From Palaeococcus ferrophilus DSM 13482 (lineage in GTDB: Archaea; Methanobacteriota_B; Thermococci; Thermococcales; Thermococcaceae): a stretch of 64,000 nucleotides of DNA. The position numbers and the translations under genes are program-made. The stretch spans positions 1 through 64,000 of the forward strand of contig NZ_LANF01000006.1 in assembly GCF_000966265.1 (NCBI RefSeq), in the 5' to 3' direction. Positions 15,205-17,664 of the stretch are shown here, in pieces; position 1 is the stretch's first letter; the number at the start of each line of letters is the position of its first letter. The notes under the pieces were generated by a model that saw nothing but the letters and a program-made list of their open reading frames with translations, was not told the origin of the DNA and did not search any database.

Positions 15205-15939
15205 ATGAGGGCGGTCGCCTTCGTGGGATTCAAGAAGAGCGGTAAAACAACGACAGTTGAAGCGGTCGCGAGGGTTCTAAGGAATAGAGGCTACCGCGTG
15301 GCGATAGCAAAGAGCATGCACACGGAGTTTGACAGGGAAGGGACCGACACCTGGCGCTTCTCAAAGGTTGCCGACTCGGTTATTGTGAGGGCCAGCGACA
15401 CGGACGCTCTGCTGTTCAAAGCAAAAGACATAAACGCGCTCCTCTCAATGGTGCAGGCAGACTTCCTCCTCCTTGAGGGGTTTAAAGACATTCACCACGT
15501 CCCGAAGGTCGTCTGTGCCAGGGGCGAGGAGGACTTTAGGGAGCTCAACGACGGCCTGGCCATAGCTGTCAGTGGCGTCATAGCAGAAAGCGGCGTTGAG
15601 GCGATAGACGGCCTCCCCGTCATAAACGCCCTCACCGAAGCGGAGAGACTGGCCAACGTTGTTGAAAAGCGCGCCTTCATGCTTCCCAACATAGACTGCG
15701 GCATGTGCGGCTTCCGCTGTGCTGATATGGCGAGGATGATAGTTAAGGGCGAGAAAACCGTGAAGGACTGCGTTGTACTGAGCCAGAAGCCCAGAGTTAC
15801 CGTCAAAATAGACGGTCAGGTTCTCCCCATGAAGGACTGGGTTCAGGAGCTCGTCGAGAAGACGATAAAGGGCATGCTCTCTGCTATGAAGGGCTATCGC
15901 GGGGGAAGGAGGATAGAGATAGTGATAAGGGAGGATTGA
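15205..15939 (+). CDS. mobB: MobB-like GTPase with a four-cysteine C-terminal domain
   Basis: The 244-residue protein begins with a P-loop (FKKSGKTT) and resembles MobB, the GTP-binding partner in molybdopterin guanine dinucleotide synthesis. In Thermococcales the metal would probably be tungsten. After about residue 160 it carries DCGMCGFRCADMA plus a later cysteine (C165, C168, C172, C189). This pattern suits an iron-sulfur or zinc site and is absent from short bacterial MobB. The start has GGAGGTGG upstream. It ends the forward run and converges on a decayed toxin gene five bases away. Confidence 0.85.
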   Translation: MRAVAFVGFKKSGKTTTVEAVARVLRNRGYRVAIAKSMHTEFDREGTDTWRFSKVADSVIVRASDTDALLFKAKDINALLSMVQADFLLLEGFKDIHHVPKVVCARGEEDFRELNDGLAIAVSGVIAESGVEAIDGLPVINALTEAERLANVVEKRAFMLPNIDCGMCGFRCADMARMIVKGEKTVKDCVVLSQKPRVTVKIDGQVLPMKDWVQELVEKTIKGMLSAMKGYRGGRRIEIVIRED

Positions 15940-15944
15940 GACCT

Positions 15945-16417
15945 TCACCTTCCCCAGTATTGTTTTGGCAACAGCTCTACTATCTCCCGTGCTCTTTCAA
16001 AATCTCTGTCGAACGTCGCTATTTTCTTTGTTCCATATTCAAATGCGGTCGTTATTATCCTTGCGTCGTGGGGAAGCAGGCCGTAGTGCTTCATGAAAAG
16101 GAGCGTCCGTCCCAGTCACGGGAATCTGGCACTATCATGATGTCAAACGCTTCGAACACTGCCAATACTTTCTTTCCGATTTCGTAGGCAAATTCTGCCA
16201 TTCCTGGATCTTTGGAGAGTTTTTCTCTGATGGCCAGAGAAGACTTCACGCCAAAATTTCTACCCATTTCCCTTTTGAGAATGATAAAAAGGAACTCATC
16301 AACGACGATGTCCGACGTTATCTTTGGTTCTTCCGATGTGAGGAGCCTCTCCGCAAATTCCGCAAACTCTCCGTTGGTTGTGTAATGGTAGAATACACTC
16401 GTATCTATATAAATCAC
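15945..16417 (-). pseudogene. VapC-like PIN toxin broken by a frameshift
   Basis: The reading frame from the GTG at 16417 encodes a typical PIN N-terminus (MIYIDTSVFYHY, with Asp5), then VVDEFLF and IMIVPDSRDW. It stops early at 16091. The rest of a PIN domain continues in another frame (LLFMKHYGLLPHDARI, then IATFDRDFERA) to a stop at 15945. A one-base loss near 16105, in the segment coding SRDW, would join them. The break separates the later conserved aspartates from the first ones, so the product is probably inactive. The GTG overlaps the antitoxin stop as GTGA. A sequencing error is the main alternative. Confidence 0.75.
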
Positions 16418-16602
16418 TGCTCATACGCCTCTGTCCGGAGCTTTTTGAACTCCTCGTTCGTCCCTCCCTCGCCAAACATTCCTCTTTTAACATCCTTGGC
16501 GAGTTCTTTAATCTCCCGTCTAATCTCTTCGATTTCTATAAGCTCCTGAATCGTCTTTATGTCCAGGTTCCCCATGAGCTTTTTTAGGGTGGTGTTCTCC
16601 AT
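16414..16602 (-). CDS. VapB-like antitoxin
   Basis: This 62-residue, strongly charged, mostly helical protein sits directly upstream of the PIN gene and overlaps it by four bases, the standard antitoxin-toxin order. It begins MENTTLKKLMGNLDIKTIQE and ends with a disordered acidic/basic tail. I see no clear ribbon-helix-helix or AbrB signature, so the family is set by context. AGGTGA precedes the ATG at 16602, and ATTTAAAT at about 16636-16643 is a suitable TATA box. With the toxin frameshifted, the antitoxin may be an orphan. Confidence 0.65.
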   Translation of the reverse strand: MENTTLKKLMGNLDIKTIQELIEIEEIRREIKELAKDVKRGMFGEGGTNEEFKKLRTEAYEQ

Positions 16603-16669
16603 GTGTTTCACCTGTCTTTTAGTTGGTTGTGGATTGATTTAAATGTTGTCTCTATCTCATTGGGTTTCG

Positions 16670-17068
16670 TCATATAACCCTAACCCTCACTTCCCTCACC
16701 TTCCCCCCTTCTGGGAGATACGCCCCGTAGTTCCCCTCATTGTCCACTATAAGCCATACAACCGGCCACAGCTCCATTCCCTTTAAATCCCTCCCGCTCG
16801 GCCTCGGCGGACACTTGAGATGGGAGTGGAATATTCCAACGACCTCAAGCCCCTTCTTTTCTGCCCCCTCTATCGCCTCGACCATCTCCACGGGCTCCAT
16901 CTCGAAGGCAGCCGGGGAATTCAGCCTGTTGCCCACGAAGCGAACTTCCTCGACGGCTATGTTATCCCCCTCCCGCTTTCCGAAGAGGAAGCCGCAAACC
17001 TCCACCTCGCTTCTCCCAGCTACCTCCAGTATGGCCGAGAGGTGGGGGCGTTTAATCTTCAGCTCCAT
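16670..17068 (-). CDS. JAMM/MPN+ family metallopeptidase
   Basis: The 132-residue protein has a complete JAMM motif: an upstream glutamate in EVEVCGFLFG (around 21-23), H81-x-H83, S91 and D94. This is the zinc isopeptidase signature of RPN11/CSN5 relatives. Archaeal homologues may remove small ubiquitin-like modifiers (SAMP), but no such gene is near. GGTGA lies just upstream of the ATG at 17068, and a TATA-like CTTATAAG is at about 17103-17110. The longer open frame to 17272 has no supported start. A glycolytic-motif palindrome lies 80 bp upstream. Confidence 0.88.
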   Translation of the reverse strand: MELKIKRPHLSAILEVAGRSEVEVCGFLFGKREGDNIAVEEVRFVGNRLNSPAAFEMEPVEMVEAIEGAEKKGLEVVGIFHSHLKCPPRPSGRDLKGMELWPVVWLIVDNEGNYGAYLPEGGKVREVRVRVI

Positions 17069-17146
17069 TCTGTTCACCGATGTAATTATATGTGCAGAAA
17101 AGCTTATAAGTTTAACATACAACCCATCCCCCGGCATCAATGTAGT

Positions 17147-17163
17147 ATCACTTAAAGTGATAT
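17147..17163. promoter_or_regulatory. Thermococcales glycolytic motif (TrmBL1/Tgr operator)
   Basis: TATCACTTAAAGTGATA matches the published motif TATCAC-N5-GTGATA exactly, with perfect 6-bp arms. The regulator TrmBL1/Tgr binds this site in Pyrococcus and Thermococcus, repressing glycolytic genes when the site is downstream of TATA and activating gluconeogenic ones when it is upstream. Here it lies upstream of the TATA box of the minus-strand JAMM gene and just before the ribosome binding site of the plus-strand 49-codon gene, so it could affect both. Confidence 0.8.
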
Positions 17164-17178
17164 ATGGAGGTGGAAAGA

Positions 17179-17328
17179 ATGCTCGCGAGGATTGTGTATT
17201 TCCGCAGGGACACGGTTCCGGTAGAAGAGGTAATAGCGGCAAGCAGGTATGAGACCGCCCTGAACGTGGCAAAAAAGCACCTGAAGCGATGGGAAGCGGT
17301 CTCCTTCGAGATAGAGCTCATAGCATGA
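17179..17328 (+). CDS. small conserved-looking protein, 49 residues
   Basis: A short reading frame begins MLARIVYFRR and ends SFEIELIA. GGAGGTGG lies five bases before its ATG, one of the best sites in the window. The predicted fold is beta-helix-beta. I do not recognise the family. It lies directly behind the glycolytic-motif palindrome and overlaps the end of the convergent gene by 11 bases. The strong site and clean frame argue that it is real. Confidence 0.6.
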   Translation: MLARIVYFRRDTVPVEEVIAASRYETALNVAKKHLKRWEAVSFEIELIA

Positions 17329-17626
17329 GTTCAAGCGCCCGGGCAAAGCGCTCCTCGAAGTCCGCGTCGTCGGCCGCGGGCCTCTCCTTCCCCAACGCTA
17401 TTCTTTCGAGTGTTTTAACCGCGTTCTCCCACATCTCCTCAAAGGTGTCCCCCTTCTCCACGGCGTTCCTCAGCACGTGCCACCTCTCCCTCTCCCCGTC
17501 GTAAACGAGGATTCTGGGTATGAGCTCGATGTCCATGAAGGTGTTATCAAGTGAAAGTTCCACCCTGAAGGGGCCGACCTCGAGGAATCCCTCCTCCCTG
17601 AGTTTTTGCTTCCACTCCATAGGCAT
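17318..17626 (-). CDS. uncharacterised protein, 102 residues
   Basis: An acidic soluble protein (MPMEWKQKLREE at the start, FEERFARALELML at the end) that I cannot assign to a family. The sequence upstream of the ATG at 17626 is C-rich and holds no Shine-Dalgarno match. A TATA-like CTATAAAC is centred near 17653, which would place transcription start at the ATG itself, so the mRNA may be leaderless. It lies between the DUF4349 gene and the 49-residue gene. Confidence 0.6.
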   Translation of the reverse strand: MPMEWKQKLREEGFLEVGPFRVELSLDNTFMDIELIPRILVYDGERERWHVLRNAVEKGDTFEEMWENAVKTLERIALGKERPAADDADFEERFARALELML

Positions 17627-17664
17627 CAAAAAAGGTGGGGGTGGGGGGTTTATAGGGCTAACGC

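Follow-up and report, generated by a model that had tools for sequence, protein, structure and literature searches.

The exact palindrome TATCACTTAAAGTGATA is very probably the operator of a 49-codon gene lying just downstream of it, which the sugar regulator Tgr/TrmBL1 would repress in the absence of maltodextrins and release when sugar is present. We analyzed the site within a 64-kb window, meaning the whole stretch of 64,000 nucleotides of Palaeococcus ferrophilus DNA. By its sequence the palindrome (TATCAC-N5-GTGATA, no mismatches) is a genuine Thermococcales glycolytic motif (TGM), the operator sequence of Tgr/TrmBL1, and we infer that Tgr binds it here. It is the only exact match inside the window. 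The earlier note had already recognized the exact palindrome but placed it at 17147-17163, whereas our motif scan locates it at 17146-17162. Both neighbors named in that note were borne out, namely a JAMM gene on the reverse strand and a 49-codon open reading frame with a ribosome binding site on the forward strand (Table 1). ORF lists also offer an in-frame ATG at 17164 that would give a 54-residue version of the microprotein; the 49-codon reading is the better one because homologs align from the second ATG (17179).

Table 1. Features at and around the palindrome (window coordinates)
Feature	Position	Strand	Basis
Divergent JAMM/MPN+ metalloprotease gene, 132 aa; probably a bystander	16670..17068	-	Pfam Prok-JAB, E = 2e-15
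Candidate TATA box of the JAMM gene (ATATAAT)	17085..17091	-	Sequence inspection; about 23 nt before the ATG, 55 bp from the motif
BRE/TATA (CAGAAAAGCTTATAA) oriented toward the microprotein gene, with its TATA core at 17104-17109	17095..17109	+	Conserved block in related genera
TGM palindrome TATCACTTAAAGTGATA, Tgr/TrmBL1 operator sequence	17146..17162	none	Motif scan; conservation before 56 of 61 downstream-gene homologs
Shine-Dalgarno GGAGGTG of the microprotein gene	17166..17172	+	6 nt before the ATG at 17179
49-codon microprotein gene (MLARIVYFRRDTVPVEEVIAASRYETALNVAKKHLKRWEAVSFEIELIA), conserved partner of the motif	17179..17328	+	Homology, dN/dS, AlphaFold
Convergent 103-aa ORF, 3' end overlapping the microprotein gene; no family match	17318..17629	-	Family scans (Pfam, NCBIfam)

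The Motif Is Conserved with the Microprotein Gene

To place the site in a comparative setting, 94 Thermococcaceae genomes were scanned for the exact motif and searched for JAMM genes. Motifs occurred near JAMM genes but at widely varying distances, and on inspection of the loci the constant element beside the motif was a homolog of the 49-codon gene. A profile search at an E-value of 0.01 recovered this family of 47–49-residue proteins in 66 of the 94 genomes, a few of which contribute only weak matches to a paralog; a larger profile gave 62 genomes, and the microprotein is found in roughly two-thirds of the family's genomes. Its carriers fall in four genera (g1, g3, g4, and g5), namely that of the window, the main Thermococcus genus, and two more. 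Profile searches of nine genomes from the genus taken as Pyrococcus returned no homolog, and none was found outside Thermococcaceae among 115 genomes of the phylum. A genome taken as P. pacificus (G001) possesses Tgr, and no microprotein homolog was found in it.

Among 61 distinct microprotein loci, which are not 61 independent events because their sequences are phylogenetically related, 56 have a motif ahead of the start codon that departs from the palindrome pattern at no more than two positions (19 exact, 25 with one mismatch, and 12 with two), and at the remaining five the motif is lost or degraded. Dinucleotide-shuffled upstream regions reach this quality in about 0.6% of cases. The position of the motif is nearly fixed, with 15–17 nt separating it from the start codon in 51 of the 56 (2, 11, 11, 13, and 19 nt in the remainder). 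The pairing also persists where the microprotein gene and JAMM do not form a divergent pair: of 13 such loci, at which JAMM is missing from the vicinity, degraded, or located on the opposite side, 12 retain the motif. One of the 12 is that of T. kodakarensis, with the gene at G023:C1:1020769-1020915. Retention of the motif-microprotein pairing across four genera implies that the microprotein probably belongs to the sugar-response regulon, as a member so far overlooked.

Promoter Architecture Suggests Repression by Tgr

A TTATAA sequence that the earlier note had omitted faces the small gene, with the motif 42 bp downstream; this TATA box can be read on both strands and is thus also an alternative candidate for the JAMM gene. 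The TGM therefore lies on the downstream side of the microprotein BRE/TATA, which is the arrangement of repressed targets, and at every locus with an assignable TATA box the motif is likewise downstream of the TATA facing the microprotein gene. The spacing between the two elements switches by genus, from 42–43 bp in the window and genera g4 and g5 to 20–22 bp in Thermococcus, a difference of about two helical turns. The Thermococcus spacing makes the motif overlap the expected start site. At 42–43 bp the motif probably begins near +13, which is less typical, and repression there would need to act by blocking early transcription. A second conserved block (approximately TTnTGTTCATTGATGT; 17074-17089 in the window) lies about 22–37 bp ahead of the TATA box that serves the microprotein gene and is retained even at relocated microprotein genes. 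When blocks of this type were sought elsewhere in six genomes, few exact matches were found; the block is possibly the site of a second regulator.

In P. furiosus, a downstream TGM is associated with repression and an upstream TGM with activation, and TrmBL1 occupies no sites during growth on starch (PMC4706686). Because downstream sites accompany repression in that species and TrmBL1 is unbound on starch, we would expect repression of the microprotein gene without sugar and release with maltose or maltotriose. Specifically, in the absence of maltodextrins the Tgr/TrmBL1 ortholog would bind the motif just downstream of the TATA box and start site, where it would block RNA polymerase; maltose or maltotriose would free the motif of Tgr, and the microprotein would then be made alongside glycolytic and starch-degrading enzymes. 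Its most likely mode of action during growth on sugar would be the binding of a partner protein, a function that we offer as a tentative guess.

Since the JAMM promoter also has the motif on its upstream side, a dual effect is conceivable here, like that at the divergent P. furiosus pair PF1538/PF1539, where one site represses one gene and activates the other (PMC4706686). Under this compatible addition to the microprotein-operator explanation, which we regard as unlikely, Tgr would repress the microprotein gene and also activate JAMM, though only where JAMM is directly divergent, so that any effect on JAMM would be local. The required divergent geometry exists in the window species and in genera g4 and g5 but is not conserved beyond them, and those promoter elements that are conserved point toward the microprotein gene.

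The Genome Encodes Tgr and a TGM-Marked Sugar Regulon

An ortholog of Tgr/TrmBL1 is encoded at C19:198418-199434. It shares 76% identity over its full length with T. kodakarensis TK1769, and the DNA-binding domains of the two proteins are near-identical; TK1769 adjoins glycogen synthase, in agreement with its description in the literature. Two further exact motifs occur in the genome, one before a phosphosugar mutase gene and the other between genes for a GH57-amylase-like and a secreted protein. TGMs with one or two mismatches precede genes for an amylase, GAPDH, FBPase, a cupin PGI, an aldehyde-ferredoxin-oxidoreductase-like protein, a PadR regulator, inositol-phosphate synthase, enolase, a maltodextrin ABC binding protein, and POR delta, all functions recognized from sequence rather than by family scans. 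Several of these targets match the P. furiosus list (PMC4706686), and the literature describes the regulon of Tgr/TrmBL1 as the largest of the archaeal regulons (PMC4158304).

It is very unlikely that the operator serves another TrmB-family regulator in place of Tgr. Although the Regulator_TrmB domain has seven matches in the genome, and the TGM-like site of the T. kodakarensis RuBisCO gene is regarded as the target of a repressor distinct from Tgr (PMC12628685), the exact TGM consensus at our site is common to sugar genes of the same genome. Moreover, the genomes taken as P. abyssi and P. horikoshii, which gave no Tgr match at the cut-off used, are alike without exact TGMs and without the microprotein.

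The JAMM Gene Is Probably a Bystander

The divergent gene encodes a Prok-JAB protein whose metal-binding residues (HSH-x7-S-x2-D, fitting the HxH-x7-S-x2-D pattern) are intact, while its score against the halobacterial desampylase family NF041370 is 64.3 bits versus a cut-off of 130 bits. The earlier note had placed the motif upstream of the JAMM promoter, which is correct, and had looked there for activation. The corresponding explanation, that the site mainly activates JAMM under gluconeogenic, sugar-free conditions, draws on this upstream position, 78 bp from the JAMM ATG, which resembles that at activated TrmBL1 targets, and on the distance of 114–117 bp in genera g4 and g5. We consider it very unlikely. 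Most Thermococcus loci have another small gene between the two, which leaves about 375 bp from motif to JAMM, and none of 25 JAMM genes without a microprotein neighbor has a motif upstream. These 25 were drawn from genomes both with and without the microprotein elsewhere, and 450 bp of upstream sequence was scanned at each except one, for which 82 bp was scanned. A motif conserved with JAMM upstream of its promoter, as expected of an activated target, was thus not found, and JAMM was rejected as the conserved target by the orphan JAMM genes (0 of 25) together with the detached microprotein genes (12 of 13). These comparisons make the JAMM protease a probable bystander of the motif. The earlier suggestion that either JAMM or the microprotein is tied to sugar state consequently narrows: it probably holds for the microprotein, by the counts of 56 of 61 and 12 of 13, and is not supported for JAMM as the main target.

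Further along, a MobB-type P-loop protein with an Fe-S cluster domain (15205-15939, forward strand) is a near-constant neighbor of JAMM. The window also contains a PIN-domain gene with a short overlapping upstream ORF (16091-16611, reverse strand), likely a VapBC-type toxin-antitoxin pair; the small partner gene of the PIN-domain gene also adjoins JAMM at locus L049.

Frequency of the Palindrome

The window alone is indecisive on whether the palindrome arose by chance because its shuffle control covered matches with up to two mismatches, of which two were found and 0.90 expected. Across the 2.2-Mb genome there are three exact copies against 0.08 expected from base composition, and a reversed-pattern control gave no matches. 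The probability of a chance palindrome is negligible: a window of this length should hold roughly one match with up to two mismatches, but the expectation for an exact match is just 0.08 per genome, and the fixed position kept across four genera already refutes chance. An RNA element was also considered and rejected, as an Rfam search around the site returned no match.

The Microprotein Is Conserved and Predicted to Be Compact

The microprotein is under purifying selection as judged from its coding sequences: the median dN/dS across 519 homolog pairs is 0.16, and all values are below 1. Residues M1, R4, Y7, P14, E16, A27, A31, E44, and E46 are invariant in homologs. AlphaFold predicts a compact ββαβ fold with a pLDDT of 94. 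Neither Pfam nor NCBIfam contains a match to the protein, and sequence-profile and fold searches of the PDB gave nothing convincing, with no fold match below an E-value of 0.2. The best PDB profile match, FtsH (E = 0.002), was rejected as a relative since it is split, helix-only, and covers about 20 residues. The closest structural overlay, the T4 antitoxin Dmd (TM 0.73, 4% identity, E 1.2), was taken to reflect generic ββαβ topology.

In most Thermococcus, a paralogous 49-residue microprotein (MKWALTLHGG...; L048:1961-2110 and equivalents) is encoded between JAMM and the motif-bearing gene. This paralog is directly upstream of the motif-bearing gene, has no TGM of its own, and aligns to the family with an hhalign probability of 90. 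A gene resembling cofactor-dependent phosphoglycerate mutase (L155:811-1530, L063, L073, and others) is a convergent neighbor of the microprotein gene in many g4 and g5 loci and in two Thermococcus loci.

Comparison with Known Systems

The Tgr/TrmBL1 regulon of Thermococcales has been defined so far from known enzymes and from ChIP in P. furiosus. Our site resembles its members in having an exact operator located between TATA box and start codon, a regulator ortholog, and sugar genes in the same genome that carry the same motif; it differs in that the target is a 49-residue protein without an enzyme or transport domain. The microprotein was beyond the reach of P. furiosus ChIP-seq because no homolog was found in the genus Pyrococcus, and ChIP data from that species, as a form of the check suggested in the earlier note, would probably say little about the site. 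Start-site papers on T. kodakarensis and T. onnurineus mention neither the TGM nor the microprotein gene in their main text. The T. kodakarensis gene may already figure among the TGM carriers of van de Werken (2006) and Kanai (2007).

Like PF1538/PF1539, the site is a single motif between divergent genes; both genes are reported TrmBL1 targets in that pair, whereas here there is one conserved partner. Like the JAMM/MPN+ desampylases, the product of the adjacent gene is a Prok-JAB protein in which the metal-binding motif is present, but it falls below the halobacterial family cut-off, and its gene is not the conserved partner of the TGM.

If our reading is true, the microprotein is an unrecognized regulon member whose operator ranks among the strongest in many genomes and whose pairing with the motif survives gene relocation, offering an entry point to small-protein control of archaeal carbon flux. 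Its role would be testable in T. kodakarensis, which is genetically tractable. Among bacteria, the metabolism-tied small proteins SgrT, SR1P, and cyanobacterial PirA have about 40–50 residues and are under carbon or nitrogen regulators. The likeness in size and in control by such a regulator is no more than a lead, and no sequence relation is known. It is possible, though we would not favor it over its negation, that this Thermococcaceae-specific microprotein is a core output of the sugar regulon that regulates central carbon metabolism through a bound enzyme or other partner, as an archaeal counterpart of the bacterial small proteins.
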